Of a DNA stretch of 64,000 bases, positions 6,652-60,793 are shown piece after piece. The DNA is taken from NCBI GenBank assembly GCA_020161505.1, contig JAIUNY010000003.1, positions 124,001 to 188,000 on the forward strand, given 5' to 3'. Position 1 is the first letter of the stretch; each line of letters begins with the position of its first letter. Below the pieces are notes generated by a model. That model was given only the letters and a program-made list of their open reading frames with translations, did no database searches and had not been told where the DNA came from. Position numbers and translations under genes: made by a program. Source of the stretch: Armatimonadota bacterium. Its GTDB lineage: Bacteria > Armatimonadota > Fimbriimonadia > Fimbriimonadales > Fimbriimonadaceae.

Positions 6652-7739
6652 GGCGTACTCTTTGCCCTCTTTCGCAACGTGTTTCTAGAGGTACCCGTGA
6701 GTTCTGAGGCTCGCCGCTGAGAGACCCCAGCTGCCACCATGCGTTCTGAAATGATATGCCTTTCTGCCTGCGGGAATCGCCGAATTACCTCCGCACAGGA
6801 CTCCAGCAGGCCATCGGCTTCTGGAACCCCAGCAAGAACTGAGAAGCGTTTTGACGAGCGAATCTGTCGCACGATGTCCGCCTGACTCATTCCGGCCATC
6901 GCCTGAGTTAAAACTGTAAGCAAACCTGCCTCGCCAATACCTTGCTGCATCAGGAGGGCCTGGCGTTCACTACCAGAAGGCAAAGTGAACTCTAGAACAC
7001 TCTCGAATCGTCGCCAAATTGCTGGATCAAGAAGGTCTGGATGATTGGTTGCAGCGAGAACAAGCGATCCTTCAGGCCATTCATCAAGCTCCTGCAGTAA
7101 CACATTTACTAATCGCTTAAGCTCGCCAAGGTCAGTTTCGTCCGCTCGTCGCTTTGCTATTGCGTCGACCTCGTCAAGGAGAAGCACGCAGTCAAACTCC
7201 TTACAAAAATCGAACAGCTGTCGGACGTTCTGTCCACTCTTTCCCAGAAACGAACTTATCGCAGTGGCCAGGTCGAGTACAACCAACGGCAAGCCAAGTT
7301 GACCAGCGATCCAATGAGCAGTCATTGTTTTGCCAACCCCCGGAGGCCCAACTAGGAGTGCTGACTTAGTTGGGCTCAGGCCCGCCAGCCTCAATTGTGA
7401 CGGGTCGCGATGCTCTGAGACAAGCTGGGAAACTCGAGTCCTCGTAATCTCATCCAGTATCGGCTCTCGGGCCAACGCAGGCTCAATCACCCTTGCGAGA
7501 GCCATTCGAGAATCAGCATCTACAGGCAATGGCCGACCAGCAGCTCTGAGGGCACCGTTTCGTACAGCCAAGAGAGCGAGCCTCTCAGCCAGCTCAGGAA
7601 TCTCATCTTTGTACTTCTGGGACATACGACGCGCGAGTGCCTTGACGTCCCGGCTCCTTCCTTCACTCCCGAATTGAACCAAGTGGATCACATCTTGAAT
7701 CAGGGCTGACATATGCTCCATATCCTTTCGAGTGCTCAT
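6648..7739 (-). CDS. ietA: IetA-like AAA+ ATPase, partner of the subtilase
   Basis: 363 aa. Walker A GPPGVGKT at 131-138, Walker B VLLLDE at 185-190, sensor-1 Asn in LAATNH at 232, arginine-finger candidates R243/R244 in IWRRF. The C-terminus (GVSQRRASELTGTSRNTLRK) looks like a helix-turn-helix, possibly for DNA binding or autoregulation. It is first gene of the two-gene operon and overlaps the protease gene by ATGA. In IetAS pairs the ATPase is thought to hold the protease in check or activate it. Its start is preceded by CATAAT only 8 bp away, suggesting a leaderless mRNA. Confidence 0.87.
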   Translation of the reverse strand: MSTRKDMEHMSALIQDVIHLVQFGSEGRSRDVKALARRMSQKYKDEIPELAERLALLAVRNGALRAAGRPLPVDADSRMALARVIEPALAREPILDEITRTRVSQLVSEHRDPSQLRLAGLSPTKSALLVGPPGVGKTMTAHWIAGQLGLPLVVLDLATAISSFLGKSGQNVRQLFDFCKEFDCVLLLDEVDAIAKRRADETDLGELKRLVNVLLQELDEWPEGSLVLAATNHPDLLDPAIWRRFESVLEFTLPSGSERQALLMQQGIGEAGLLTVLTQAMAGMSQADIVRQIRSSKRFSVLAGVPEADGLLESCAEVIRRFPQAERHIISERMVAAGVSQRRASELTGTSRNTLRKRAKSTP

Positions 7740-7858: not shown

Positions 7859-8110
7859 ATGTCAGACAAGAAGAAAACCGTAACCATCGTCGTAAACGGG
7901 ACCGCTCACGAGTGGCCCAAAGGGGAGATCACCTATGAGGAGGTCGTCACGCTCGAAGTGCCCGATTATCCTCAGCATCCCGAGATCAGCTACTCGGTCA
8001 AGTATAAGCGGGGCCATGGTAACCGACCAGAAGGGACTCTGTCACCTGGTGGGTCTGTCCGGGTTAAGGAGGGAATGAGCTTTAGTGTTTCAGAAACTGG
8101 TCAGTCATAA
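7859..8110 (+). CDS. ubiquitin-like modifier (multiubiquitin family, single domain)
   Basis: 83 aa, start ATG at 7859 preceded by AGGAG. The pattern VTIVVNGTAHEWPKGEITYEEVVTL and a later YSVKYKRGHG / GSVRVKEGMSFSV fit the beta-grasp multiubiquitin family found in bacterial ubiquitin-like conjugation operons. Only one domain is present. There is no cysteine and no Gly-Gly end: the last residues are SETGQS. It overlaps the E1-like gene by 26 bases, so translation is coupled. Role: the small protein activated by the next gene (family knowledge); its target is unknown. Confidence 0.8.
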   Translation: MSDKKKTVTIVVNGTAHEWPKGEITYEEVVTLEVPDYPQHPEISYSVKYKRGHGNRPEGTLSPGGSVRVKEGMSFSVSETGQS

Positions 8111-9257
8111 TCCTGACTTGAAGCTCCTCGTCGAGAAAGGCTATGCCGTCGCAATTGATGGCGGATACTTGCTTGTACGCGACATTCCGTACCTTGACTC
8201 TACGAAGGCCCTCCAATGGGGGGCGTTCGTAGCAAAGCTCGTTTTTACTGATACCGAACACTTTCAGCAGGATGACCATCAGGTATTTTTCGCTGGCAGT
8301 GTTCCCCATGGACTCGACGGGAGGCCAATTCCAAATCTTGGCGGAGGCGCGGTACAAATCGAGCTCAGCGCTATAAATCAGGATGTTAAGGTTGAGCGCA
8401 GTTTCTCGAACAAGCCAAAGGCGACCGGCGCATTTGCCAACTTCTTCGAAAAGATCGAGAGCTACGTTACGATTGTTGCCGGGCCAGCTATGGAGCTACA
8501 CAACGTAACTCCCTATACATTCAGGGTCGTTGAGTCCATGCCAGATTCAGTTTTCAAGATTCATGACACTCTCTCTAGTCGCGCTGAAATTACCGACCTA
8601 GCTAAAACAGTCTCAGAAGATGTCGTTGCCGTCATTGGACTTGGTGGAACAGGCTCATATGTGCTCGACATGCTGGTTAAGACCCCCATTCGCGAAATCC
8701 GCGGGTTTGACGGTGACATGTTTCATGTTCACAATGCATTCAGGTCACCAGGTCAGCTGAACCTAGCCGATCTCGGTCAATCAAAAGCTGCGGTTTACAA
8801 CCATCGGTACGACAGCCTTCGCCACGGATTAGTGCTCAAAGCTGAACGGATTGACGAGACCAACGCAGAATTGCTTGATGGCGTAACCTTCGCCTTTGTT
8901 TGCATTGACAGTGGGACTGCGAGAGCAGAGATATTCGAGTTACTTGCAAAGCAAGGGATTCCCTTCATCGACGTTGGGATGGGACTTCAACGAAAGAACG
9001 GCTCAATCAACGGCATGCTGCGAACCACCTTCTTTTCAGCTCAAACTGCCCGGGAGACAATCGACCGGGGTTTTGCGCCCCTTAGCGATGACGCGGAAAA
9101 TATCTATAAGTCGAATATTCAGATCGCTGAGCTCAATGCACTCAACGCCTGCCTGGCGGTCATTAAGTACAAGCAACTTCGAGGCTTCTACTATGAGGAA
9201 GAGCCACTGGTACACCAACTATTTGAGATTGGTGACATGAAAATTGTCGGTGAGTAA
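8085..9257 (+). CDS. DUF6791-ThiF fusion, E1-like adenylating enzyme
   Basis: 390 aa, GTG start inside the end of the Ubl gene with AAGGAGG upstream. Residues 1-~165 match the DUF6791-type domain that accompanies these systems. Residues ~178-390 are a ThiF/E1 adenylation domain with GLGGTG at 185-190 and FDGD at 208-211. Only two cysteines exist, C273 (FVCIDS) and C356 (NACLAV), both in the nucleotide-binding core, so a classic E1 or E2 catalytic Cys is not evident. Expected role: ATP-dependent activation of the adjacent Ubl. A Ser/Thr-based transfer is possible, as reported for related bacterial pathways, but is inference here. Confidence 0.8.
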   Translation: MFQKLVSHNPDLKLLVEKGYAVAIDGGYLLVRDIPYLDSTKALQWGAFVAKLVFTDTEHFQQDDHQVFFAGSVPHGLDGRPIPNLGGGAVQIELSAINQDVKVERSFSNKPKATGAFANFFEKIESYVTIVAGPAMELHNVTPYTFRVVESMPDSVFKIHDTLSSRAEITDLAKTVSEDVVAVIGLGGTGSYVLDMLVKTPIREIRGFDGDMFHVHNAFRSPGQLNLADLGQSKAAVYNHRYDSLRHGLVLKAERIDETNAELLDGVTFAFVCIDSGTARAEIFELLAKQGIPFIDVGMGLQRKNGSINGMLRTTFFSAQTARETIDRGFAPLSDDAENIYKSNIQIAELNALNACLAVIKYKQLRGFYYEEEPLVHQLFEIGDMKIVGE

Positions 9258-9713: not shown

Positions 9714-12700
9714 TCATTCCAACGTCCCCCCGGAAACCAACCCCAAGAACCGCTCAAAGAACGCAATGAGCTTCGCCAAAACCCGCTGCTTCTTCTGTCC
9801 GTGTCCGCCGTCTGAGGAGAACCGGCTGGTCGGCGGCATGACCTTCGTGATAGCAGTTCCCGTGGAACGAATCACGCCGTCGCGGAAGGCTGATTCCACA
9901 AAAGCGCGGGTCTCCTCGGGTTTCAGTTTCTCCTCTTCAATGATCTGTCCGAGTTCCTCCTCGCGCTTGCGATCCACGAATGCCCTCCACTCGGCATCAA
10001 GCTCACCGGTAGCCGAGACCGAGTCAACAAAGTTTTCGATGAGGTCTTTCTTGTTTCGAAGGGTTGGCGAGGAATCGACTGCTCTCGTGATCTGGGCACG
10101 AATCTCTACATCATCGCCGTTGCCCTTCGCTTCGCGAAACTTCGCGACAAGCATCAAAATGAAGTCAACGTTGATCTCGACCTGTTTGATCAGCTCAATC
10201 TCGAAGACGATGTCGTCAAGAATCTGCTCCTTGTCCGAGTCCTTGCCGGAGCGGAAGTCAGCGTAAATATCGAGGTAGATGCTTCGGTAATCCTGACCTT
10301 CTCGGTCTGAGAGGACTGCGTTGCCTTCGAACTCGTCAAATGAAGTGAGAATATTCTGAAGCCTGAGAATCGAGCCAAAAAGCGTGACGAACTCCTTTTG
10401 AGCCTGTTCACCAACAATCCGCTCATCGAGCGGGAACTTAGCGAGTAGCTCATGCACTTTGGTTTCGTAGTCAGCAAAGTAGTCTCCATACGGCTTGAGA
10501 ATGGCAATGCCCCGAGCTTCCTTGTTGCCAAAGAGCGAGAGCGCATCGTTCGTCTCAGCTTCAAGGTCCCGGAAGCTAATGATGTTCCCGTATGCCTTCA
10601 CCGAGTTGAGAATTCGATTCGTGCGGGAGTAGGCCTGGAGTAGGCCGTGGGCGCGAAGCTGCTTGTCCACAAAGAGCGTGTTCAATGTGGTCGCATCGAA
10701 GCCAGTGAGGAACATGTTGACCACGATCACGAGGTCAATCTTTCGCTCCTTGAGCTTTAGGGAAAGGTCTTTGTAGTAATTCTGAAACTTATCAGCCGAC
10801 GTATCGAACGACGTGCCGAACATCCCGTTGTAGTCTTTGATTGCTTCATCAAGAAAGTCACGGGCCGCACCAGAGAGGTGGTTCGTCTCAAACTCCTCTT
10901 CCTCAAGTGCTCCGTCTTCAACGGCTTCATTCGCGGCATACGAGAAGATGATTCCTACCTTCAACTGCTTGTCAGGGACCAATCCAGCTTGCTGACGTTT
11001 GAACTCACCGTAATAGGTCCGGGCCGCGTCGATTGATGCGGTGGCAAAGAGCGCGTTGAAGCCTCGCAAACGACGCTCTCCAAGGGAGTACGTGCTAGTT
11101 CGCTTCGTCTTCTGATCGAAGTGCTCCAGGATGTAGCTAGTCACCAGCGCTATCCGCTCTTGAGCAAGAAGGGCCCGTTCCGTGTCGATAGCAGAGACCT
11201 TCTTATCAAGAACGTCTCCCATTTTGACCGTGTTCACGTAGTCGATCCGGAACGGAAGGACGTTCTTGTCAGTAATCGCATCGACGATTGTGTAGGTATG
11301 GAGCTTCTCGCCAAAAGCCTGCTCGGTCGTCTTGAGGTTCGGGTTTCCGCCACTCGACATGTTCGCGGTGAAAATCGGGGTTCCGGTGAAGCCAAAGAGG
11401 TTGTACCGCTTGAAGGCGCGGGTGATCGCCGTGTGCATATCACCGAATTGCGAGCGGTGGCACTCATCAAAGATCACCACAATGTGTCCGCCGAACACCT
11501 CATGCCCTTTGTTGGCGGTAATGAAGTTGGCGAGCTTCTGGATCGTCGTGATGATGATCCGCGCATTCTTGTCCTCAAGCTGTCGCTTCAGAACTGCCGT
11601 GGACGTGTTGGAGTTGGCTGCACCTTTTTCGAAGCGGTCGTACTCGCGCATCGTCTGGTAGTCGAGGTCTTTGCGGTCCACCACAAAGAGCACTTTGTCC
11701 ACGCTCGGCATCTTGCTCGCAAGTTGAGCGGTCTTAAACGAAGTAAGCGTCTTGCCTGATCCAGTGGTGTGCCAAACGTAACCTCCTGCTCGCACCGAGC
11801 CTAGCCATTTCATGTTCGACGCCACTTCGATTCGCTGGAGGATTCGTTCGGTTGCGGCGATTTGGTACGGACGCATCACCAGGAGCATCCGATCTGCCGT
11901 AAGAACACAGTAGCGAGTGAGGATGTTCAGCAAAGTGTGCTTCGCAAAGAACGTCTTGGCGAATGCTGTTAGCTCCTGAATCGGTTTGTTCTGCGAGTCG
12001 GCCCACCACGATGTGAACTCAAAAGAGTTGGAGGTCTTCTTGACCTTCTTTGCTCCGGTGGCATCGGCAATGTGCTGGCGGCGGGTGGTGTTGCTGTAAT
12101 ACTTGGTCAGTGTTCCGTTGCTGATCACGAAAAGCTGGACGTACTCAAACAGCCCCGAACCTGCCCAGAATGAGTCTCGCTGGTAGCGGTCGATCTGGTT
12201 GAACGCTTCGCGGATGTCCACCCCTCGTCGCTTCAGTTCGATGTGAACCATCGGCAAGCCGTTGACCAAAACTGTCACGTCGAACCGCGTGGCACGTGTT
12301 CCGGCAGTCTCATACTGATTGACGACTTGGAGTCGGTTGTTGTGGATGTTCTGCTTGTCGATCAGCTTGATGTTCTTCGTCGTGCCGTCGTCGCGATGGA
12401 GAAGCTGAACCGAGTCCTCCTGGATGCGAATTGTCTTTTCAGCAATGCCGTCGTTCTGCCCGGCGATGTTACTTTCAAAGAATCGCTTCCATTCGGCGAC
12501 GCTAAACTTCACATCATTCAGAGCCTCTAGCTGAGCCTGGAGGTTTGCGACGAGCTGCTCTTCCGAGGTGAACTTGAGGTAGTCGTAGGCTTGACCCTCT
12601 AGAATCCTGATGAGTTCCTTTTCCAGGGCATCTTCACTCTGGTAGCTCGTCTCACGAACCTTCGATTCTGGGATGTACTGCGCAACGACCGTGCTCTCGT

Positions 12701-12745
12701 TGGAGACGGCAATTGGATCGTAGTTGTAGGGCGTTCGATCCTCGC

Positions 12746-12749
<4 letters not shown>
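9714..12749 (-). CDS. hsdR: type I restriction enzyme R subunit (HsdR)
   Basis: 1011 aa, normal length. The N-terminal nuclease core has D157 and ELK at 171-173 (PD-(D/E)xK). The motor has Walker A TTGSGKT at 328-334, the DEAD-box-like FDECHRSQFGD and GFTGTP. It uses the ATP-driven translocation motor of a type I complex to cut DNA unmodified at the HsdS site. It is last of a five-gene operon, overlapping hsdS by four bases. No frameshift or lost motif, so the endonuclease should be active. Confidence 0.96.
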
Positions 12750-14034
<1,285 letters not shown>

Positions 14035-14038
<4 letters not shown>

Positions 14039-14958
14039 TCGAAGAAATCCTCATCCACATCCACAATAGCTAAAGTCTCTCTTACTTGAACTCCGACGCG
14101 GTACTTAACCATCAAATCAACAAGCCGTGGGCCATCAATAAGGATGATCCTCACCCGAGCATCACGTTCCGCGTACTCTCTGGCTCCTGTGCTAAATCGG
14201 CCTGTAGTAATCATGACTCCTTGCTCCGCTTTGCCACTTAGCGCACCGACGAACGCCTGTACTTCTGGTCTCCCGACAGAGTTATCCCGAGCATATCGCT
14301 TCGCTTGTACATAGACCTTACTCAACCCCAGTACATCTTGGTCAATTACTCCGTCGATTCCGCCGTCGTTAACCAAACGCGTGGCTGCCGCTTGTCCACC
14401 GGTACCCCCGTAGCCCATCGCTACAAGAAGCCGGACCACTGCCTGCTCAAAGAACGCGGGGTCTAGTGCGACTAATCGCTCAATGAGCCCGGCCCTAACA
14501 TTACTTTGGATTAGTTCTATACCCTGTGCGATCATCTCTACGGGATCCAGTGGATTCGTTACGCTCTCTACATCACTTTGCTTTGAGTGATTTTCTCTTT
14601 GCAACTTGGACTTTGATACCCACCACTGATCATCAGGCTTTGCCACTGCTCTTAGGTCTGCCTCTGTGATTGTAACCGGGTGGTCGTGAAGAAACCTTCT
14701 TCCAAATTCTGTAATGGCATACTTGCCACGTGTAGGTCGTTCGAGAGCACCTACTCGCGTCAGATAAGATGTCGCCCATCCAATTCGGTTGGCTACAACT
14801 TGTTGACCCGAAGAAAGAGACTCAGTTCGTTGATCGTGCGTTAAGCCGATAGCGTCTGACACAGCCGAGATCAAGTCTCGAAGTACTCTCACCCCGCCGT
14901 CCGCCTGAATGCGAAGAACGGGAACCATGAAGCCGTCCCAACTTGGAATTTCATTCAT
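14035..14958 (-). CDS. mrr: Mrr-like restriction endonuclease
   Basis: 307 aa. An N-terminal winged-helix (Mrr_N-like) region with EFGRRFLHDHP near residue 88 leads to a C-terminal Mrr catalytic domain: FEQAVVRLLVAMGYGG, then DGGIDGVID and VYVQAKRY as the PD-(D/E)xK-type core (D and QxK). Mrr enzymes cut DNA carrying foreign methylation. It overlaps rhuM and hsdS by four bases each, so it is made with the type I complex and could add a type IV check on incoming modified DNA. Confidence 0.85.
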
Positions 14959-16010
14959 GCTTTGCCCCCTTCGGCGTCTTCACCAGCGTCCAGGAACCGA
15001 TCAAAGTCACTCTTGAAAATCCGATCTTGGACGACGCGATACTTCTCGAATTCTGTTTCTGCGTGGAGCTTGGCTTGCTCGTGGCTAATGCGTCCAGGGC
15101 CAGTCAGTACCTCACGCTCGTTGAATTCGAGGAAGCCATCCAAACGCTTTGCCCAGTCCTCCATCGACATAGGAACCTTCCGCTTTGCTTGGTCTTCAGC
15201 GTAATCAAGGTACATCGAGACAATCCGTTCCATGTGCTCCATCTCGTCGTCGCTGAGGTAGTTCTTGGCAATCGAGACATCCGACTTGACGATCTTGCCC
15301 TTTGGGGCTGACTCCCATGTGGTGAGACCCATGTGCTCTTTCTCGGCATCTGCCCGTTCGATGATGAGTTCGGCGGCAGTGTGGCGATGAACAGCCCAGT
15401 GCATCTTGTTTTGCACCAGGGCGAAAAAGAGTTTGGTTGTCTGGGCCGTCTGGTCGTAGTCAAAGGCAGAAGCGTAGAGGTCGGTGACCTTTTGGTAGAA
15501 CTTCCGCTCCGACAGACGGATTTCTCGGATGAGTTGGAGCTGGCGGTCGAAGTACTCGTCCGTAAACATATGGCCCTTCTTGAGGCGATCCACGTCCATC
15601 ACCCATCCCTGGATGGTGTAGAGTTTCACGATCTGACCCGCCCACTTTCGGAACTGCACCGCGCGTTCGTTCTCGATCTTGAATCCCACCGCAATGATGG
15701 CCTGGAGGCTGTAGAGCTTGGTGTTGTAGCTCTTGCCGTCCGAGGCAGTTATCAAATGCTGTTTGATAACTGAAGACTCTTCCAGTTCGTGATCGGCAAA
15801 GACTCTGAGCAGGTGATGATTCACGGTTTGCACGGTGACGCCGTAGAGGGTCGCCATCATCTTCTGGGTCAACCAGAGGTTTTCTTCGAGGTAGAGCAGC
15901 TCAGTAGATTCAGATTCGCCGCCAACCGAAGCAATAAACGTCAGGTATTCCGCCGCCGAAGCGCGCACGATATCCAAGTCCTTCCGAGGCTTTTCGGGCT
16001 TGTCGCTCAT
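14955..16010 (-). CDS. rhuM: RhuM family protein
   Basis: 351 aa. Recognised by the family pattern LWLTQKMMATLYGVTVQTVN near the N-terminus (helix-turn-helix-like), KLYSLQAIIAVGFKIENERA in the middle and VSMYLDYAEDQAKR towards the end. RhuM proteins were named from a Salmonella pathogenicity island and often sit between type I restriction genes; their molecular function is unproven. Coupled by four-base overlaps to hsdM and mrr. A DNA-binding accessory or toxin-like role is a guess. Confidence 0.85.
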   Translation of the reverse strand: MSDKPEKPRKDLDIVRASAAEYLTFIASVGGESESTELLYLEENLWLTQKMMATLYGVTVQTVNHHLLRVFADHELEESSVIKQHLITASDGKSYNTKLYSLQAIIAVGFKIENERAVQFRKWAGQIVKLYTIQGWVMDVDRLKKGHMFTDEYFDRQLQLIREIRLSERKFYQKVTDLYASAFDYDQTAQTTKLFFALVQNKMHWAVHRHTAAELIIERADAEKEHMGLTTWESAPKGKIVKSDVSIAKNYLSDDEMEHMERIVSMYLDYAEDQAKRKVPMSMEDWAKRLDGFLEFNEREVLTGPGRISHEQAKLHAETEFEKYRVVQDRIFKSDFDRFLDAGEDAEGGKA

Positions 16011-17578
16011 GCTGGACTCCCTTCAAGGTCTGCCACGATGGCGTCAATCTGTGTGCGTAGCTCAGATTGGCGAGCCACGATCCCCGCGATCTTCGCGTTT
16101 AAGGCTGTAATGTCGATGGCTTCGGTCGTGTCTTCTTTCTCCACGTAGCTGGAGACCGAAATGTTGTAGTTGTTCTCCTCGATGTCTGCCGCAGTGACCA
16201 GACGTGTGAAGTGCTCCTTAGTCTGACGTTGGTTAAAGGCGTCCAGGATTCTTTCCTGGTGCTCTGGAAGGAGTCGGTTTTTGTTGCCCACACGCTGGAA
16301 GAGTGCGGAGGCGTCGATGAAGAGAATTGCGTTGTCCTTCTTCGACTTCTTGAGAACAATTATGCATGTGGCAATTGTTGTCCCGAAAAACAGGTCAGGC
16401 GGAAGCTGGATAACCGTGTCGATGTAGTTGTTGTCGATCAGGTATTTACGAATCTTCTGTTCTGCTCCACCTCGATAAAGGACACCAGGAAACTCAACGA
16501 TGGCGGCCGTTCCATTGACGGCGAGCCAATGGAGCATGTGCATTGTGAACGCTAGGTCGGCGGCTGATTTTGGAGCGAGCACACCGGCGGGCGCATAGCG
16601 CGGATCGTTGATCAGGAGCGGATTCGCGTCTCCGTCCCATTTGATGGAGTAGGGAGGATTGGAAACAATCGCTTCAAACGGCTCATCATCCCAGTGAAGC
16701 GGATCGGTCAGAGTGTCGCCGTGAGCGATGTGGAACTTCTCGTAGTTCACGTCATGCAGGAACATGTTGATCCGAGCCAGGTTGTAGGTCGTCAGGTTGA
16801 TTTCCTGCCCATAGAAACCTTGCCGGACGTTCTCCTTGCCGAGAACCTTGGCGAACTGAAGCAAAAGTGACCCGGAACCCACGGCGGGATCATACACCTT
16901 ATTGACCTGAGTCTTGCCAGCCACGGCAATTCTCGCCAAGACCTCGGAGACTTCCTGGGGGGTGAAGAACTCACCTCCTGACTTTCCTGCCTGGGAGGCG
17001 TACATAGTCATCAGGAACTCGTACGCGTCACCGAAGAGGTCAATGGAGTTATCTTCGTAGTTACCTAGCGGCAGATCACCAATGGCATCGAGGAGCTTCA
17101 CGAGCTTCTCGTTGCGCTTTGCCACCGTTGGCCCGAGCTTTGCACTGTTTATATCTAGGTCATCGAACAGACCCTTCAGGTCATCTTCGCTCTCCGTCCC
17201 TACGGCCGAGCCTTCGATGTTGTTGAAGACTCGTTCAAGGGTCTCATTGAGGTTTTCGTCGCTCTTGGCCCGTCTGCGGACGTTTACGAACAGCTCAGAC
17301 GGAAGAATGTAGAACCCTTTCTCAGCAACCGTTTCGGTGCGCCCAAACTCCGCATCCTTGTCGGACAGCTCGGCGTAGTTGAATCCTTCTTCGCCAGCCT
17401 CCTTTTCGAGCTTGTTGATATAGGAAGTCAGGTTTTCGGAGATGAACCTATAGAAGAGCATCCCGAGTACGTACGACTTAAAGTCCCAGCCATCCACCGA
17501 GCCACGAAGATCATTGGCGATTCGCCAGATGGTCTTGTGAATCTCCGCCCTCTGAGTCTCGCTGGTGGCTGGCGGCAT
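16007..17578 (-). CDS. hsdM: type I methyltransferase subunit (HsdM)
   Basis: 523 aa. HsdM_N-type helical domain at ~10-170, then the N6-adenine methylase domain: FFTPQEV (~205), SAM motif I DPAVGSGSL (230-238), catalytic NPPY (307-310). First gene of the operon, followed by rhuM with ATGA overlap. With HsdS it methylates host sites; with HsdR it forms the nuclease. All motifs are intact. Confidence 0.96.
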   Translation of the reverse strand: MPPATSETQRAEIHKTIWRIANDLRGSVDGWDFKSYVLGMLFYRFISENLTSYINKLEKEAGEEGFNYAELSDKDAEFGRTETVAEKGFYILPSELFVNVRRRAKSDENLNETLERVFNNIEGSAVGTESEDDLKGLFDDLDINSAKLGPTVAKRNEKLVKLLDAIGDLPLGNYEDNSIDLFGDAYEFLMTMYASQAGKSGGEFFTPQEVSEVLARIAVAGKTQVNKVYDPAVGSGSLLLQFAKVLGKENVRQGFYGQEINLTTYNLARINMFLHDVNYEKFHIAHGDTLTDPLHWDDEPFEAIVSNPPYSIKWDGDANPLLINDPRYAPAGVLAPKSAADLAFTMHMLHWLAVNGTAAIVEFPGVLYRGGAEQKIRKYLIDNNYIDTVIQLPPDLFFGTTIATCIIVLKKSKKDNAILFIDASALFQRVGNKNRLLPEHQERILDAFNQRQTKEHFTRLVTAADIEENNYNISVSSYVEKEDTTEAIDITALNAKIAGIVARQSELRTQIDAIVADLEGSPA

Positions 17579-25390: not shown

Positions 25391-25570
25391 ATGTGGCTCC
25401 CAATGCCCTCAAGTCGCGTCGCGGCCGACTTTCAGCAGTTTCTGCGGTCCACATACGACATTGAATGCGATACCGTAACCGCGACGAAGGTTGCGACATT
25501 CCTCATCCAACTCACCTACGTCAGAGCCTATGCAGTACGTCATCTACACTCGAAAATCGACGGAGAGTGA
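25391..25570 (+). CDS. 59-aa hypothetical protein overlapping the recombinase start
   Basis: ATG at 25391; product SSRVAADFQQFLRSTYDIEC then TATKVATFLIQLTYVRAYAV has an amphipathic, protein-like composition. It overlaps the recombinase gene by 41 bp in another frame. It could be a small accessory protein or only a coupling leader. Confidence 0.35.
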   Translation: MWLPMPSSRVAADFQQFLRSTYDIECDTVTATKVATFLIQLTYVRAYAVRHLHSKIDGE

Positions 25571-27113
25571 AGACCGCCAGGTTCAGAGCTTGGAGGATCA
25601 GCTAGGCGTCCTCCGTGTGCTTTCAGAGCACAACGGTCACAAGATCAGTCAGGTCATATCTGAGTCAAAGAGCGCAAAGGACCCGTACTCGCGACCTGCG
25701 TTTGAGAAGCTCATGCTCCAAGTTGATGGTGGGAAGATTGCGGGAATTTACACTTGGTCTCTCAACCGTCTATCTAGGAACCTAGTTGACGGCGGTCGCC
25801 TTGCTCACGCTCTTCAAATCGGCAAAATCGGCGCACTCATCACTCCTTCGCGCACCTACACCAGTGAAGACAGCGCGCTACTTCTTGCCGTTGAAAATGG
25901 AATGGCGACGGCTTACATCCAGGACCTGCGGCGGAATGTATCTCGCGGAATGGATGGAAAAGCGGCTCGCGGATGGCTTCCTGCTAAGGCTCCCATGGGT
26001 TACAAGAACAACGCTGAAACCCGCGAAATCGATCCGCACCCGGTCAGCTTCAATCTTGTGCGACAAGTGTTTGAACTGGCTGCAACTGGTCATTACTCCT
26101 TCGCCGAACTTCGAGCAGAGGCGAACAAGCTTGGACTTCGATCGACGAGGAAAGGGCATCACGGAGAGCCGATCTCAAAGTCGGGCCTTCACAAAATCCT
26201 TGGGAACCCATTCTATGCCGGGCTCTTAACCTACAAAGGCCGTCTCACCCCCGGGAAGCATCAACCGATGATAACTCAAGCGCTGTTTGACCAAGTGCAG
26301 ACCGTGCTTCGTCGCAAGCTCGACGTTCGCAAGCCAGAACCCCAGTTCGCCCTGAGCGGTGGCATCACGTGCAAGGCATGCGGATGTGCGGTGGTAGGTG
26401 AACGAAAGTCGAAAACGCTCGCCGATGGCACGGTTAGGGTCTACACCTACTACCACTGTAGCGGTGCTAAGGGATGTAAGCGAAGCGCAATCTCAGAGGA
26501 GCAAGCCCTCCGACAGGTCGCCTCACATCTCAAGGAGGTAGCGATTTCTCCTGAAGTAGGGGCTTGGATTCTTCGTGCGATGGGAATGATTGTCGAGGAG
26601 GAGACGCTCGTTCGTGCCCAAACGGCTTCAATGGTTGAGGCAGACTGCAAAGCCCTTGAAGGTAAGTTGGAGAGGTTGCTTGCCCTACGACTCGATGGAG
26701 AGCTTGATCCAGAGGAATATGCAACTCAGAAATCGGTGCTGCGCCATAAGCTAGAGACGCTGAGGGAGACGGCCCGAAAAGCCAGCAGTGCAGTTGCCGC
26801 GCTCTTGGACTATGGAGACTCCCGCATCAAGTTTGCCGTCGAGGCATTTAGCTACGGAAACAACTTTCCGACTGTGTTTCTTCGAAATGCCATTCGAACT
26901 GGCTTCCAGAGCGCACAGATGCAGGGTTCGACTCTAGTCTTGGCTCATGATCCAGTGCTTCAGAAAATCGCTTCATTCGAACCGCTGAGAAATGGCTCTC
27001 AGTGCCCCGAACAAAGCGATCTGTTTAACCGAAATTCCGTTTGGTGGACTCTCGTGCACGATATTCGAACCGTCGCTCATGCGGAGCTCGGCATCGAATC
27101 AACGTCAAGTTAG
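25530..27113 (+). CDS. large serine recombinase
   Basis: 527 aa from the ATG at 25530 (a TTG at 25491 is an alternative). Resolvase domain YVIYTRKSTESEDRQVQSLE with the catalytic Ser in RKS, followed by WSLNRLSRN; recombinase domain from GYKNNAETREIDP; zinc ribbon CKACGC ... YHCSGAKGCKR; then a coiled-coil region (VEADCKALEGKLERLLALR). It has the full large-serine-integrase layout and is intact. This element already has a tyrosine integrase at its end, so this may belong to a nested element or serve another recombination. Confidence 0.92.
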   Translation: MQYVIYTRKSTESEDRQVQSLEDQLGVLRVLSEHNGHKISQVISESKSAKDPYSRPAFEKLMLQVDGGKIAGIYTWSLNRLSRNLVDGGRLAHALQIGKIGALITPSRTYTSEDSALLLAVENGMATAYIQDLRRNVSRGMDGKAARGWLPAKAPMGYKNNAETREIDPHPVSFNLVRQVFELAATGHYSFAELRAEANKLGLRSTRKGHHGEPISKSGLHKILGNPFYAGLLTYKGRLTPGKHQPMITQALFDQVQTVLRRKLDVRKPEPQFALSGGITCKACGCAVVGERKSKTLADGTVRVYTYYHCSGAKGCKRSAISEEQALRQVASHLKEVAISPEVGAWILRAMGMIVEEETLVRAQTASMVEADCKALEGKLERLLALRLDGELDPEEYATQKSVLRHKLETLRETARKASSAVAALLDYGDSRIKFAVEAFSYGNNFPTVFLRNAIRTGFQSAQMQGSTLVLAHDPVLQKIASFEPLRNGSQCPEQSDLFNRNSVWWTLVHDIRTVAHAELGIESTSS

Positions 27114-30967: not shown

Positions 30968-32113
30968 CTACGACGTGCCATCGACAAACAGAGCATTGAG
31001 CGCGGTGCGCAAGATGCTCTGTGACATCGCGAGGGGTCTGGTGTAGTTGACCTCGGTTACACCGCTTGCAGCATGTCCAACGTGTTCCTTGAGCGTGGTC
31101 GCGGAGACATCAGGACACAGTTTCTCGATCCAATTGATGTGCGTGAGCCGACAGTCGTGCGGACTCATGTCTTCTGGCAGTCCCGCCTCCTTGCGTATTC
31201 GACGCCACGTTGCGTAGGTGAGTGCCTTCATTCGCGGTTTGTTCTCCTCTGCCGCTGACCACAGGTAGTCCCCTGAACTCTTACCTTCGCAAAGTGGGCG
31301 AAGTATTGCCGCCAGAGTGTCGCACATCACCGAGAGGCGAACCTTGTCCCCCTTCGGTAACCCAACGGTCTGTGCGCTCTTCTCGGTCAGCTTCACAGCC
31401 CGGTCAACAAGAATCGTGTTCTCTTTGAAATTGACTTGCCCAACGGTGAGCGCCATTTGCTCTCCGAGCCGAAGACCGGACAGCAAGTACACCGCCAGGA
31501 TTCCTCTTCGCTTTTCATCCAGTTCCTTGCTGGACAGTGCCTTCTTCGCTTCCTTGGGCGTCAACGCAACTGCCACGCGCCTCGGTGGTGTTTTGAGTTC
31601 CAATGCGAATGGATTGCGCCAGAAGTGCGGGACTCGACCATATGGAGTGATAGCCTGGTTGAACGCCCTTACGAGGAGCACTCTAAGCGCAATGATGGTG
31701 TGCTGCCCAACTCCAGTTTCTCGAAGGTGGGTGTAGAAGGACTTTACGTCAACTGGATCGATCCGGGTTAAGGGTACGTCGGCCCAACGAGCCTTTGCGT
31801 ACTTCTCATAGCGGGCTTTGCGATCCCTCACCGTTTTCGGATCGAGTGACTCGCTCCAATCATTCTTGATGAGCCAGTCGAGCCAGTCACCAAACGTGAG
31901 GTCATGGGTGATCTGATGAGCCGCAGGACTCCCGTCTTTGCGAAGCGACCGGAGAAACTCCAGCCCTTCCTTCTGAGTTGAGAACACCCTGGAAACTCGT
32001 TTCTGAGACCCGTCAGGCTTTCTCAGGCGGTACTGCACCCGCCACTTACCGGAGAGTTTTCCGCTTTGGATTTTTCGGCAGGAACCCTCTCCGCTGTCCG
32101 CTCTAGTCGCCAT
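30968..32113 (-). CDS. int: tyrosine integrase of the element
   Basis: 381 aa from the ATG at 32113 (a GTG at 32131 is possible). Catalytic residues are visible: Arg in LLSGLRLGEQ, HDCRLTH for the HxxR box, GHAASGV, and the nucleophile Tyr in EVNYTRPL. The N-terminal region has SAM-like and core-binding helices. It sits 114 bp from the tRNA-Arg 3' end, and the double 11-bp repeat lies just upstream of its start, which may give autoregulation. All catalytic positions are intact. Confidence 0.93.
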   Translation of the reverse strand: MATRADSGEGSCRKIQSGKLSGKWRVQYRLRKPDGSQKRVSRVFSTQKEGLEFLRSLRKDGSPAAHQITHDLTFGDWLDWLIKNDWSESLDPKTVRDRKARYEKYAKARWADVPLTRIDPVDVKSFYTHLRETGVGQHTIIALRVLLVRAFNQAITPYGRVPHFWRNPFALELKTPPRRVAVALTPKEAKKALSSKELDEKRRGILAVYLLSGLRLGEQMALTVGQVNFKENTILVDRAVKLTEKSAQTVGLPKGDKVRLSVMCDTLAAILRPLCEGKSSGDYLWSAAEENKPRMKALTYATWRRIRKEAGLPEDMSPHDCRLTHINWIEKLCPDVSATTLKEHVGHAASGVTEVNYTRPLAMSQSILRTALNALFVDGTS

Positions 32114-32147
32114 AGTTCCAAGAGTGTACACCGCTTTGGAGTGCGTT

Positions 32148-51561: not shown

Positions 51562-52434
51562 TTAGGTCTTGCCGGCAGCCACGACAACACCCGTCACTTG
51601 GTGGGGCTTGTCGGCTTTCAGCTTAGAGAGTCGGAACGCCACTCGGTCGCGAACGAGGAAGCGAACAACCAGGTTGTCGCCGTTGATCTCGTATCCGTCC
51701 GGAGCGTTGTACGCTTTGATGACGCTTCCGAAAGAGCTACCAAAGGTGATGCCTCGGCGCGTCTTCACGCTGCGGTTCTCAAGACCGACCGCTTCGATTT
51801 GGATGACGCGGTTGAACTTGTCGAGAACGAATGCATAGCGAGCCTTCTTCGTGTTGTAGATCCAACGGGTGAAGGTGACGCGGGTCGATTGACCGCCACC
51901 AGCTGCACCGTCGTTTCCGCCCCGTCCAGGAGCACCGCCACCAGGGCCGCCCTGACCAGCTGGTGGTCCGAACGAGGAAGGTCGAGGAGCATCCGGCGAA
52001 CCAGGAGCAGCTTGGTTCAGATCGCGCCACTCGCCGCCGGGGCCGAACGGATCGCCGACCATCAGCTCTTGCGGGAGGGTATCACGGTTTTGATCCGTGG
52101 CCGCGCCTTGAGGGCCGCCGCCACCGCCACCACGACCGCCGCCTCCGGGGCCAGTCGCGGGAGCACCAGCTCCGCCGCCACCGCCACCACCGCCGCCGCC
52201 AGCAGCGGCACCGCCGCCTACCGTCAGAGCTTGGATTTGGTCAGGCGAGCCATAGCTCGAAATCACTTTGGTGCCCGGATCGTAAAGGGCGATCCCGATC
52301 AGGCCCCGCTCAGCGGTGCCACGACGGGCCTGCGGCGCAGTGCTTTGACTGTGTACCAAAAGCACACTGCCCAGCGTCATCGCCGCCACGGTCGTCAGCA
52401 GAATGGTCTTCTTCACTTGACTTGAGTTCCTCAA
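51562..52434 (-). CDS. secreted Gly-rich hypothetical protein
   Basis: 290 aa. Signal peptide, then a short conserved stretch (LIGIALYDPGTKVISSYGSPDQIQAL), a ~45-residue Gly-rich linker (runs of up to ten Gly), a Gly/Pro region, and a beta domain (VTFTRWIYNTKKARYAFVLDKFNRVIQIEAVGL). Similar outer segments around a Gly linker suggest two halves of one beta-domain type. The function is unknown. Confidence 0.7.
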   Translation of the reverse strand: MRNSSQVKKTILLTTVAAMTLGSVLLVHSQSTAPQARRGTAERGLIGIALYDPGTKVISSYGSPDQIQALTVGGGAAAGGGGGGGGGGAGAPATGPGGGGRGGGGGGPQGAATDQNRDTLPQELMVGDPFGPGGEWRDLNQAAPGSPDAPRPSSFGPPAGQGGPGGGAPGRGGNDGAAGGGQSTRVTFTRWIYNTKKARYAFVLDKFNRVIQIEAVGLENRSVKTRRGITFGSSFGSVIKAYNAPDGYEINGDNLVVRFLVRDRVAFRLSKLKADKPHQVTGVVVAAGKT

Positions 52435-53079: not shown

Positions 53080-54687
53080 GTGAGCAATTCTCTGACCCCC
53101 AACATCGCCAAAGCTGGGCTCATCATGACGGCGAGCCTCCTGCTCAGCCGAGTGCTCGGAATCATCCGAGAAATGATCATCGGCGCGATGTTTGGGCAGA
53201 GCACGATGACGGATGCGTACAACTACGCCTTCAGCATCCCCGACATCCTTTTCTATCTCGTCGCCGGAGGAGCGTTGAGCTCGGCGTTTATTCCCGTCTT
53301 CTCGGAATATCTCCACACCGGTAAAGAGGAGGATGCGTGGCACGTTTTCAGCAGTGTCGCCACCATCATGGCGATCTTCGTGACCGCCTTCATCGCCCTG
53401 GCGATGGTGTTCACGCCGCAACTGGCTCGAATCGTCGCCCCGGGCCTCAGCGGGCCAGATGCCACCCAAACTTACGAGCTCATTACCTACATGAGCCGGA
53501 TTGTGCTGCCCGCCCAGTTCGCCTTCTTCATGGGAGGATTGCTCTTCGGAACGCTGTACGCACGCCAGGTTTTCTCGGTTCCTGGCCTCGGGCCGAACAT
53601 CTATAACCTGGGGATCATCTTCGGTGCCGTGGTGGTTTCACACTCCCTGACCATCCCGGTCGCCGGAATGAGCTGGGGCGCGACGGTCGGAGCTTTCCTC
53701 GGGAACATCATTGTTCCGATCTGGGCGATGCGCAAAATCGGAGCCCGGTACCGCTTTGTTATCGACTTCAAGCATCCTGGCGTGCGCAAGGTCTTCCGAT
53801 TGATGGGGCCAGTCGTCTTTGGGCTCTCCCTGCCCGGGGTGTTTGCCCTCTTCCTGATGACCTTCAGCTCCTACTTCGGAGGCAATGGCATCGCGACCGC
53901 TTTTCGGAACGCCAACCAGCTGATGCAGGCTCCCCTCGGCGTCTTCGGCCAATCGATGGCCCTCGCGATCTTCCCCGCTCTGAGTCAGTTCGTGGCCCAG
54001 CAGCGGATGGACATGTTCCGAGATCAGCTGGTGAAGACTCTCCGAACGGTGGTGTATCTCACCGTCCCGATTGCGTTGCTGCTCCTGGTGGCTCCCGCTC
54101 CGATTATCTCCGCGATTTTCGAGCGGAGGCAATTCTCTGCCGAGGACACGATGCGCACCGCTCCATTGCTCGCTGGGTTTGCCGTGGGAGTTCCGTTCTG
54201 GTGCCTGCAGCCGATCCTGATGCGGGCATTCTTCTCGTTGCAGAACACAAAGCGTCCCATCCTTCTCGGCACCCTCACGACCTTCATCTTCTTGGGAATG
54301 GTGGCGGGCGTGCTCGTGCTGAAGCTACCCGCGTGGACTCTGGCGGCGGCTGGCTCGGTAGCCTCGATTATCCTCGTTGCGATGCTGACTCGGGCGATCG
54401 GCAAGGATGTAGAAGGGCTGAAGTTCGGATCAGTTGGTCGAACCGCCGCACGCGCGACCGTCGCGGCCTTGCCTGGCACCGCTCTGTTCTTCGGTGCCTT
54501 CTGGGTTCTCGATCAAACCACCGCTGCCCATGCCAACCTCGCCAAGGTCGCAGTTCTCTTTGTCGCCGGATGCTCATCAGCATGGCTTTACTACTTCATC
54601 AGCAAGGCCATGAATATGAGCGAGGCCGCCTACTTTGAGCGCGCGTTGAAACGACGCCGTGGCGGCAAATCCGACGAAACGACTTAA
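53080..54687 (+). CDS. murJ: lipid II flippase MurJ
   Basis: 535 aa from a GTG. Fourteen-helix MOP-family membrane protein: GLIMTASLLLSRVLGIIREMIIGAMFG at the start, RNANQLMQAPLGVFGQSMALAIFPALSQ in the middle. Moves lipid II across the membrane for peptidoglycan synthesis. Ends overlapping the convergent trypsin-like gene by 4 bp. Confidence 0.93.
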   Translation: MSNSLTPNIAKAGLIMTASLLLSRVLGIIREMIIGAMFGQSTMTDAYNYAFSIPDILFYLVAGGALSSAFIPVFSEYLHTGKEEDAWHVFSSVATIMAIFVTAFIALAMVFTPQLARIVAPGLSGPDATQTYELITYMSRIVLPAQFAFFMGGLLFGTLYARQVFSVPGLGPNIYNLGIIFGAVVVSHSLTIPVAGMSWGATVGAFLGNIIVPIWAMRKIGARYRFVIDFKHPGVRKVFRLMGPVVFGLSLPGVFALFLMTFSSYFGGNGIATAFRNANQLMQAPLGVFGQSMALAIFPALSQFVAQQRMDMFRDQLVKTLRTVVYLTVPIALLLLVAPAPIISAIFERRQFSAEDTMRTAPLLAGFAVGVPFWCLQPILMRAFFSLQNTKRPILLGTLTTFIFLGMVAGVLVLKLPAWTLAAAGSVASIILVAMLTRAIGKDVEGLKFGSVGRTAARATVAALPGTALFFGAFWVLDQTTAAHANLAKVAVLFVAGCSSAWLYYFISKAMNMSEAAYFERALKRRRGGKSDETT

Positions 54688-55493
54688 AGCGCGCCGAGAT
54701 TGAGGAACCCGTCCCATTCATTCCGAACGACGCCATTCAGGATCTCGCGGCTGAACGGGGACAGCCACAACACCTTGGTTTCATCGGATTGGCCAGGCTG
54801 AATCAGCCCAGCGAGCCGCCATTCTCCCGATTCCCGAAAGAACACCGCTCCGCCTTCATCGCCGCGCGCGGCGACCCCCGCAAGCTCTCCTTGAGGGGCG
54901 ACGCCCGTTCGGCGCACCACGCCGCGGAACGCCAGAGCCTGAATTGGTTCGTCTCCAAAACCGGCTCCAAATTGAGTGACCTGCGCGCCCTTGCCCAACA
55001 GACCCCGGTGCCCGAATCCACTCAGGATCACCTCCGCACCAGACGTGGGAAGCTCAAAACCAAGTATCGCCGGGTCGATTCCGTAGGGCGCAGGCCGCTC
55101 ATCGAGACGCAAGATCGCGAGGTTGTGTCGCTCGGCTCGAGGGGCGTCCGCACTTTCTCGGGCAATGATAAACCCCTTCGGGAGATACCAACTCGCTCCT
55201 CGAAAGGCGAGCTCGTTGCCGAACTCATCGGGGATCACAAACTCGACTTCGGCAGGGGCGTAGAGAGAGCCGTCGGGCTTGAAAGCCGCATCCGCAGTCG
55301 TCAGGATGTACCCCCGATAAAACCAAACCCCGGAAACTCGCGCCCCTTGGCGAAACATCCCCACGCTCCGAAACCACGGCTCCCGCGCCAGAGCCAAGTG
55401 ACGGTCGAAGCCATGAACCTCATGCTCCTTGGGATCGACGATGCCAGCGGGCACCAGGGTCGAAAGGATTGCACAAACAAGGGAAGCTGTCAT
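54684..55493 (-). CDS. catalytically dead trypsin-fold protein
   Basis: 269 aa with a signal peptide. The chymotrypsin-family landmarks are present but each catalytic residue is replaced: ILTTADA where ILTAAHC is usual (His to Asp), HNLAILRL where DIALLRL is usual (Asp to Asn), GDEGGAV where GDSGGP is usual (Ser to Glu). The fold otherwise looks kept, so a binding rather than cutting role is likely. Confidence 0.7.
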   Translation of the reverse strand: MTASLVCAILSTLVPAGIVDPKEHEVHGFDRHLALAREPWFRSVGMFRQGARVSGVWFYRGYILTTADAAFKPDGSLYAPAEVEFVIPDEFGNELAFRGASWYLPKGFIIARESADAPRAERHNLAILRLDERPAPYGIDPAILGFELPTSGAEVILSGFGHRGLLGKGAQVTQFGAGFGDEPIQALAFRGVVRRTGVAPQGELAGVAARGDEGGAVFFRESGEWRLAGLIQPGQSDETKVLWLSPFSREILNGVVRNEWDGFLNLGAL

Positions 55494-55543: not shown

Positions 55544-58447
<2,904 letters not shown>

Positions 58448-58511: not shown

Positions 58512-60386
58512 TTATTTCGGCAGGTCGCTGATTCTGATGCGTGTGCCTTGCCGCTCGTAAAAGTCCACTCGCGTGATTTCCTCCAGCGTGGAATAGCTGA
58601 GGAATGCCTGGACATCCGATGTCCCAGATTCTCGGTACTGCACCGAGCTCAGGCTCGTAATCTCACCGTCCGCACCATAGATCACCACCTTCCGATCCTC
58701 CGCCTCCTGACCAGGCCCGAGAGCCTCTACCAACACTGCCGATTTCGCCCCCACCGTCTCTTTGCTGAGGATATCGGGGTTGTGCAGGTTTGTGAATTCA
58801 TCCGTCCCCGCAACCCTGCGGTCGATAGCTTTGAGCTTTTCCGAAACCGCCCAGGCATCCCACTGCTCCAACCTCAGTTGCGTGTACCGCCCGATGTGGA
58901 AGGGAATCGGTGTGCCAGCCTTCCATGATCCCACTTTTTTCCACGGAGCATCGCTCAAGATCAGCTCCACCGATCCTTTCTTGACTTGCTCTGGCGTCAG
59001 CGAAATCGGAATTCGACGCTCGGGATCGATGAAGAGACCATACGGTTTCACCTCTCCCCGCAACCACGCTGGATTGGTTTCGTTCTTGCCCTTTGTCCAG
59101 GTCAGAAACATCACGCGCTTGCCACCGCTCAGTTGATCTTTATTCAAGAGCCACGTCTTCTCTGGCGTCCACAATCCATTTTCAGCTCGCTGAACCAGGG
59201 ATGCACCCCCTTCCATGCTCCATGTTTCTTGATAGGCGAGTTGCGATCCAGAGGGGAGGTTCACTCCTTGGGCTGGAGTCAGTCGCAATGCCGTGGCTTG
59301 ATCCTTGGTCGTATAGGCATAGCGACCAGGATCGGTGGATACATAGGCTCCATACTGCCGACCCATTGCGAACATCACCAGAATCATTGGCACCAGCGAG
59401 AGCACACCGATCCCTGGGCTATAGAACTCACGGCCAGCTTGGGTGCTCGCTACCGCCGAGCGGATTCGATGCTCCAGCCGCCCACCGTTCCCCATCGAGA
59501 GTCCGAGTAACGGCGTGGCGGCGCGGCGTGATCCCACCTTCAACAGTGCATCAGCGTAGTCACTGGCTTTCACGCCACCCTGAATCACACGCTGATCCGC
59601 CCATAGCTCAACGTTCTTGCGCACCAGCCCAGGGATGAACCATGCCCACGGGGCGATCCACGTCATCACCCGAACCATCTCTGCAAAGACCACTGGGAAG
59701 AGATCGTTCTGCCGGATGTGTTCCACTTCGTGGCGAATCACGATTTCGCGAAGCCCCTCCGGCCAGTCTCGTGAGGCTTCGGGGAGAAAAATCGTCCATC
59801 GCCCGTTGTGGGTGGCAATGCACGGCACCTCAAGCGTGGGGTGAATCCAAACTCCCAAGGGCTTCGCGGCGGTGCCCTTGGCTCTCTCACCGAGGTAGTT
59901 GAGTGCGAATTTCTGCCAATCTTCTGATGCCCGAACACTGCCCTTAAACATCTTGTGAACATTACGCAAACGGAGATATGAGAAGAAGACGCCCAAAAAC
60001 ATGCCGCCGACCAGGGCCCAAGAAATCCAAAGACGCCAAGCACTCCGTCGATCCATGACCGCGCTGTAGGCTTTAATCTCATCAAGCTTCTCCCGTCGCG
60101 GCATGGCTCGCACTTCTGACCAGGACTTTTGCGACTCCAGATCTCTCAACTCGGATCTTGTCGGCCCTGGACGCCATGTGGGGGCTTCGGTTTTGTAGAA
60201 GCTCAGGGCATACCAGCCTGGAATCACGGCACCGATCATCGCCGCGAAGAGCCCCCAGCGGGCAATGATTACCTTCGTGCGTGGGCTGAACCAGGGGAAG
60301 ATCAAGAGAAGGAAGATCACCAGGGTTGCGCCGATGTAGCCGAGTGTATGCGGCTGCAGAATGTCCATCGCGTAGCTCCACCACAT
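58512..60386 (-). CDS. BlaR1/MecR-like M56 metallopeptidase
   Basis: 624 aa. Multiple membrane helices at the N-terminus, then IVIRHEVEHIRQNDL (HExxH zinc site) of the M56 family, helices around 310-345, and a ~280-residue extracytoplasmic part with no penicillin-binding motif visible. Follows the BlaI-type repressor by 2 bp. Such pairs sense an outside signal and cleave the repressor; the signal here need not be a beta-lactam. Confidence 0.88.
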   Translation of the reverse strand: MWWSYAMDILQPHTLGYIGATLVIFLLLIFPWFSPRTKVIIARWGLFAAMIGAVIPGWYALSFYKTEAPTWRPGPTRSELRDLESQKSWSEVRAMPRREKLDEIKAYSAVMDRRSAWRLWISWALVGGMFLGVFFSYLRLRNVHKMFKGSVRASEDWQKFALNYLGERAKGTAAKPLGVWIHPTLEVPCIATHNGRWTIFLPEASRDWPEGLREIVIRHEVEHIRQNDLFPVVFAEMVRVMTWIAPWAWFIPGLVRKNVELWADQRVIQGGVKASDYADALLKVGSRRAATPLLGLSMGNGGRLEHRIRSAVASTQAGREFYSPGIGVLSLVPMILVMFAMGRQYGAYVSTDPGRYAYTTKDQATALRLTPAQGVNLPSGSQLAYQETWSMEGGASLVQRAENGLWTPEKTWLLNKDQLSGGKRVMFLTWTKGKNETNPAWLRGEVKPYGLFIDPERRIPISLTPEQVKKGSVELILSDAPWKKVGSWKAGTPIPFHIGRYTQLRLEQWDAWAVSEKLKAIDRRVAGTDEFTNLHNPDILSKETVGAKSAVLVEALGPGQEAEDRKVVIYGADGEITSLSSVQYRESGTSDVQAFLSYSTLEEITRVDFYERQGTRIRISDLPK

Positions 60387-60388
60387 GG

Positions 60389-60793
60389 TTAGCGTCCCTC
60401 CGCCCGAGCTTTCGCGATCAAGGCTTCCAGCTCATCAATCTGAGCGGGAGATAGATTCATGTCCTTCTCGCTCATCAAGCTCAGGACAGCCGCCGATCGC
60501 GAACCATCAAAGAAGGCATCAACTACCCGGGTCAGCATCGATTTCGCCGCAGCCTGCCGCTCTGCCACGGGCTGGTAGATGAACTTCGTCCCCTCCTCGC
60601 GGTGGGAGAGATGCCCTTTTTCCTCTAAAATCCTGAGTTGCGCCCGCACCGAGGAATAGCTTGGAGGGTTGGGGATTGCATCGAGCACCTCGCTTACCGT
60701 GCCCTCGCCCAGTCGGTAGAGAGCCTCCATGATCTGTGTTTCGCGTTTGCTGAGATACTCCATCTCGGTTCCGTCGTGCTCATTTCTTAGCAC
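60389..60793 (-). CDS. BlaI/MecI-family repressor
   Basis: 134 aa from a GTG at 60793 (ATG at 60760 is the alternative). Winged helix LSKRETQIMEALYRLGEGTVSEVLDAI and SSVRAQLRILEEKGHL, C-terminal dimer helices. Partner of the M56 peptidase. The inverted repeat TTAGCAGTGCTAA overlaps its start. Confidence 0.92.
   Translation of the reverse strand: MLRNEHDGTEMEYLSKRETQIMEALYRLGEGTVSEVLDAIPNPPSYSSVRAQLRILEEKGHLSHREEGTKFIYQPVAERQAAAKSMLTRVVDAFFDGSRSAAVLSLMSEKDMNLSPAQIDELEALIAKARAEGR

Follow-up and report, generated by a model that had tools for sequence, protein, structure and literature searches.

A 64,000-nucleotide stretch of a Fimbriimonadaceae genome (phylum Armatimonadota; class and phylum after PMC4072686), here called the window, encodes a remote relative of the trypsin (S1) proteases in which Asp68, Asn124, and Glu213 stand at the positions of the catalytic His, Asp, and Ser. 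The gene, at positions 54684 to 55493 of the minus strand, is an intact open reading frame (ORF) of 269 codons that begins with ATG and has a single stop at its end. Judged from sequence, its product, which we refer to as the pseudoprotease, is a real, lineage-specific, and fast-evolving S1 pseudoprotease and most likely a binding protein. Because all three catalytic residues are exchanged, we infer binding rather than cutting: the pseudoprotease probably cannot act as a serine protease, and its cleft would bind a ligand without cleaving it.

Relationship to the S1 proteases

Two profiles with shuffle controls, together with fold matches, substantiate the trypsin relationship proposed in the first-pass annotation. 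A profile of 16 S1 homologs from the same order, built without the window protein, scored the pseudoprotease at 36.5 bits; the best of 2,000 shuffles of its sequence reached 6.9 bits, and no other ORF among the 488 in the window exceeded 4.2 bits. The significant stretch comprises residues 118 to 232 and includes the Asp and Ser boxes, and the His box lies in a separate, insignificant stretch (residues 32 to 67) that stops before D68. As 15 of the 16 rows in this profile had come from tblastn matches to the pseudoprotease itself, a second profile was built from homologs of other phyla. It used 53 of 73 usable references, the remainder being Fimbriimonadaceae sequences or at least 300 amino acids long, and gave the pseudoprotease 33.1 bits versus no more than 4.6 bits in 2,000 shuffles. 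Here, a single domain at residues 40 to 236 spans all three boxes and places the His column on D68. Searches of the family genomes by tblastn with the pseudoprotease returned short matches, of which the better fell on the Ser box in S1 proteases.

Structure prediction, which had been proposed as a check, also returned the chymotrypsin fold. The AlphaFold2 model built with 70 homologs has a mean pLDDT of 70.5 and a pTM of 0.73 and relies on the S1 homologs in its input alignment. Its blocks with pLDDT of at least 90 are residues 41 to 100 and 211 to 230, and it is unreliable at residues 1 to 17, 167 to 183, and 238 to 261. A single-sequence model (pLDDT, 37) was meaningless and was set aside. 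All 50 PDB matches listed for the model with homologs are S1 proteins. The best Foldseek match to the PDB is an S1 protein with an E value of 3e-9, and the best VIA-align match (Z, 17.8; 186 residues; 2.9 Å) is SMIPP-S-D1 of the scabies mite (3h7t), by its title an inactivated S1 protein. That match is an animal protein with 12% identity, and its Z score is tied with those of many active proteases. The trypsin-like domain of the pseudoprotease extends to about residue 236 or to the C-terminal end.

Residues at the catalytic positions

The replacement of all three catalytic residues, which the first-pass annotation had read from short motifs, is confirmed. In alignment A5, which holds 70 of the 73 usable references (three with long inserts were left out), residues 68, 124, and 213 of the pseudoprotease are D, N, and E, and the other 70 rows all carry H, D, and S. 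The other-phyla profile likewise aligns TTADA with the His box, HNLAILRL with the Asp box, and GDEGG with the Ser box. The three codons, all on the minus strand, are GAT for Asp68 (55290 to 55292), AAC for Asn124 (55122 to 55124), and GAA for Glu213 (54855 to 54857), the last within a kept G-D-x-G-G loop. GAA is two base changes away from the nearest Ser codon, so a single sequencing error does not explain it. An intact triad elsewhere in the protein was sought and not found; the only histidines, at residues 24, 27, 32, 123, and 162, are not aligned to the catalytic His. Lacking His-Asp-Ser, the pseudoprotease falls outside the S1 serine peptidases as enzymes, and its S1 homology, chymotrypsin double-barrel fold, and loss of catalytic residues place it with the S1 non-peptidase homologs.

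The scaffold had also been described as conserved, a description that holds in the sense of recognizable and fails in the strict sense. Eighteen columns are at least 90% identical in the 70 homologs and filled in the pseudoprotease, which keeps 8 of them, six being glycine. The 10 lost columns comprise the triad plus 7 of the 15 near-invariant columns outside it; three further ones fall in gaps of the pseudoprotease. The oxyanion-loop pattern of G211, D212, G214, and G215 is kept.

Three other readings of these residues deserve attention. The identity of the pseudoprotease to S1 homologs is low (14 to 28%), which makes local alignment unsure, and of its boxes the His box is aligned least firmly: A5 and the other-phyla profile place the His column on D68, and the remaining two of the four alignments, including A1, leave it in a gap next to that residue. 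An ordinary serine protease with a misaligned triad nevertheless seems very improbable, since every one of the four alignments agrees on where the Asp and Ser boxes lie and no His is suitably located. That the protein is not trypsin-like at all and resembles the motifs by chance would fit the absence of any Pfam family up to an E value of 10 (the PF00089 cut-off was not reached), the lack of an NCBIfam match up to an E value of 1, and a PDB sequence search in which the top row was a non-S1 protein and the best S1 chain had an E value of 0.78; the shuffle controls and fold matches leave this reading scarcely credible. A changed enzyme might instead use an Asp68-Glu213 carboxylate pair, or a metal site completed by Asn124, for a new hydrolytic or metal-dependent activity. 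Two of the three replacements are acidic and lie at the His and Ser positions, and the catalytic His and Ser of S1 enzymes face each other. MamO is reported as a bacterial trypsin fold that has come to bind metal, although the site is a different one. None of the three replacements, however, is common to any homolog examined, and we regard a new activity of this kind as unlikely.

Distribution, descent, and constraint

A survey of homologs, proposed as a way to learn whether the replacements are fixed, recovered no ortholog of the pseudoprotease. In search sets that overlap, and some of which may omit the genome of the window or its very close relatives, the gene was present at an E value of 1e-3 in 1 of 291 genomes of the phylum, its own, and a search of 61 relatives at the same threshold again recovered just the gene itself. 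Extending the threshold to an E value of 1 across 85 family genomes yielded matches in 31 others, all with E values of 0.0014 or worse and the better ones on the S1 Ser box. Genome-contig and viral-contig collections returned the gene itself or nothing, and plasmids and phages contained no match.

The triad is intact in every other complete S1 domain read from the order. Besides the pseudoprotease, we read 96 aligned S1 stretches at 90 loci of the same order, which are part of the places located by a search with A1, a profile of triad-bearing proteins; this search covered 113 genomes of the order and found a match in 75. His-Asp-Ser is present in 91 of the stretches (89 distinct), and the other five are fragments with one or more triad columns missing, so that none is substituted. 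A separate set selected for the His box, which supplied the references for A5 and the other-phyla profile and is thus weaker evidence than the 96 stretches, has His-Asp-Ser in 68 of 84 rows, the other 16 being split or partial and again none substituted. With the triad kept in every complete S1 domain read from the order and a single protein lacking all three residues, the pseudoprotease is well suited to the question of what role a trypsin fold can have once catalysis is gone.

A tree of 118 rows does not place the pseudoprotease, which has the longest end branch (2.05 versus a median of 0.36) and no supported neighbor. Constraining it with three different parent groups led to no rejection (p-AU, 0.62 to 0.82); all three constrained trees scored better than the unconstrained one from a quick search, so that this search was incomplete. 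The nearest proteins are the RHDV/PEP-CTERM proteases by pairwise score and L137 by identity (28%). The same genome encodes one other protein of the pseudoprotease's S1 group, with an intact triad, as well as proteins that are HtrA-like by eye.

The reading frame bears the marks of a coding sequence. Its codon score of 0.105 lies within the range of the neighboring genes (0.094 to 0.277), which themselves contributed to the codon table by which they were scored. The other five frames score no more than 0.074, the maximum belonging to the antisense frame, itself open across the gene; an antisense ORF of 324 codons over the gene scores 0.053. Random synonymous codons for the same protein average -0.235, and the best of 500 such sequences (-0.096) is far below the ORF. 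Position-specific G+C shows the coding pattern and resembles that of the neighbors. We also simulated neutral change with the second S1 domain of this genome (246 codons) as the starting sequence and 300 simulations per identity level: 19% remained without a stop at 80% identity, 3% at 60%, 1% at 40%, and 0% at 25%. An open frame at a divergence where neutral sequence gains stops argues for constraint through most of that divergence and is compatible with a recent loss. With no ortholog available for comparison, there is no direct sign of selection on the pseudoprotease, and selection for binding, as put forward in the first-pass annotation, is a candidate explanation.

These observations bear on the alternative that the gene is a dead S1 protease gene, functionless and drifting toward loss. 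Its presence in one genome only, the very long tree branch, and the loss of near-invariant residues beyond the triad all fit such decay, as does its position between uvrA and murJ, two genes that in the seven genus-mates are widely separated or belong to different contigs. Against simple decay stand the open frame and the codon use: 269 codons carry no stop at levels of identity where almost no neutral simulation stays open, codon use and position-specific G+C resemble those of the neighbors, and one of the triad exchanges requires two base changes. We consider a dead gene unlikely overall, while granting it appreciable weight.

Gene neighborhood and possible role

The pseudoprotease gene is the last in a colinear row of minus-strand genes with short gaps (60793 to 54684). 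The row opens with a BlaI-type repressor (60389 to 60793, minus strand; Pfam PF03965, E value of 4e-26) and a BlaR1-type M56 membrane peptidase (58512 to 60386, minus strand; PF05569, E value of 8e-14), followed by uvrA (55544 to 58447, minus strand; 967 amino acids, identified from its translation and relatives), which lies 50 bp upstream of the pseudoprotease gene. A scan of these 50 bp for promoters and terminators found nothing, and without a promoter- or terminator-like site after uvrA, the pseudoprotease gene may be cotranscribed with the row. On the other side, murJ (53080 to 54687, plus strand; PF03023, E value of 1e-79) is convergent and overlaps the end of the gene by 4 bp. Comparison of the pseudoprotease by blastp with ORFs of at least 80 amino acids around uvrA, in eight stretches from the seven genus-mates, gave nothing at an E value of 0.01, and no S1 box was noticed in the ORFs listed beside murJ at eight loci. 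In four of the seven genus-mates, a related M56 gene (26 to 33% identity) lies no more than about 1.1 kb from uvrA.

Two features of the adjoining genes are recorded here in their own right. The uvrA gene is a single 967-codon gene in the window and is split into at least two ORFs in all seven genus-mates examined, with the break between residues 621 and 632; among the matches listed, a break at approximately the same residue occurs in many other family genomes. An ORF with the motif MAKK(T/S)WA(E/Q)K lies between the uvrA halves in five of the seven genus-mates (G001 to G004 and G006), and two of these five ORFs, when scanned, matched no Pfam family above the cut-off. The protein encoded at 51562 to 52434 (minus strand), adjoining thioredoxin and murJ, contains a long glycine/proline-rich stretch, and by eye it has an ortholog beside the same genes in G004.

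The N-terminus suggests that the pseudoprotease may be exported. Residues 1 to 17 are hydrophobic and are followed by Ile-Val, much as homologs show, by eye, Ile or Val after their signal peptides; the first 20 residues contain no Lys or Arg, which is unusual for a signal peptide. Pfam and NCBIfam scans matched no C-terminal sorting signal. Fimbriimonadaceae S1 proteases with PEP-CTERM or dockerin ends share the domain and the box layout (20 to 28% identity in A1) but keep His-Asp-Ser; L032, for example, ends in a PEP-CTERM signal and L035 in a dockerin domain, neither of which was matched in the pseudoprotease by the Pfam and NCBIfam scans.

Under the binding reading, the exported protein would have neither a nucleophile nor a general base and so could not perform the acyl-enzyme step. 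The kept G211-D212-x-G214-G215 loop would maintain the shape of the cleft, now acidic and polar through Asp, Asn, and Glu, and this cleft would bind a peptide or other ligand and leave it uncut. Located in the envelope or outside the cell, the pseudoprotease may thereby be a partner or decoy. The nearest candidates for what it would serve are the genome's other S1-group protein, with its intact triad, and cell wall stress signaling through the upstream BlaI-BlaR1 pair. A more specific version is a doubtful proposition: that in one lineage the whole triad shifted to Asp/Asn/Glu, with rapid change elsewhere, to form an acidic cleft for a ligand or divalent metal in a noncatalytic partner of the intact-triad S1 protein or of the BlaI-BlaR1 row. 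If true, it would represent an independent birth of a pseudoprotease in bacteria and a new kind of active-site remnant.

Noncatalytic roles of this fold have precedents. S1 pseudoproteases are a recognized group, and a recent paper sums up serine pseudoproteases as ligands, cofactors, or scaffolds (PMC13194640, 2026). The bacterial trypsin-fold cases that we found in the literature are UmbA and MamO, and the papers listed included none on such a protein in Fimbriimonadaceae. According to the UmbA report, none of the UmbA proteins of Streptomyces coelicolor has a complete triad, and the fold binds UmbB without cleavage (PMC11062931). UmbA of the Streptomyces umbrella particles is likewise a bacterial, secreted trypsin fold in that account, as the pseudoprotease would be if exported, and umbrella particle chains rank 6, 7, and 14 among the Foldseek matches to our model. 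As described there, UmbA carries a lectin domain, whereas the pseudoprotease has no Pfam match and its 269 amino acids are mostly one S1 domain. The MamO report describes lost protease activity and metal binding through two surface His residues (PMC4794232). MamO coexists in that account with its active paralog MamE in one organism, and the pseudoprotease genome similarly has one intact-triad protein of the same S1 group. By the same source, MamO has Thr in place of Ser and keeps His and Asp, in contrast to the exchange of all three residues here, and it possesses a C-terminal TauE-type transporter domain, for which the pseudoprotease, with no Pfam match, is too short at 269 amino acids. With bacterial S1 pseudoproteases already known from UmbA and MamO, the present protein is a one-genome addition, and the reach of the finding is limited as long as the gene stays in one genome.

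Elsewhere, the window contains several defense-like genes. A subtilase and AAA ATPase pair at 4402 to 7739 (minus strand) matches the PADLOC models IetS and IetA, and beside it, at 8085 to 9257 (plus strand), lies a gene whose E1-like product gave weak E1-E2 matches. Type I restriction and methylation genes follow at 9714 to 17578 (minus strand), and their row also includes a type IV-like restriction gene at 14035 to 14958. Two further ORFs, named by eye, resemble a serine recombinase (25491 to 27113, plus strand) and a tyrosine integrase (30968 to 32131, minus strand), and their occurrence near the defense genes suggests a putative integrated element.
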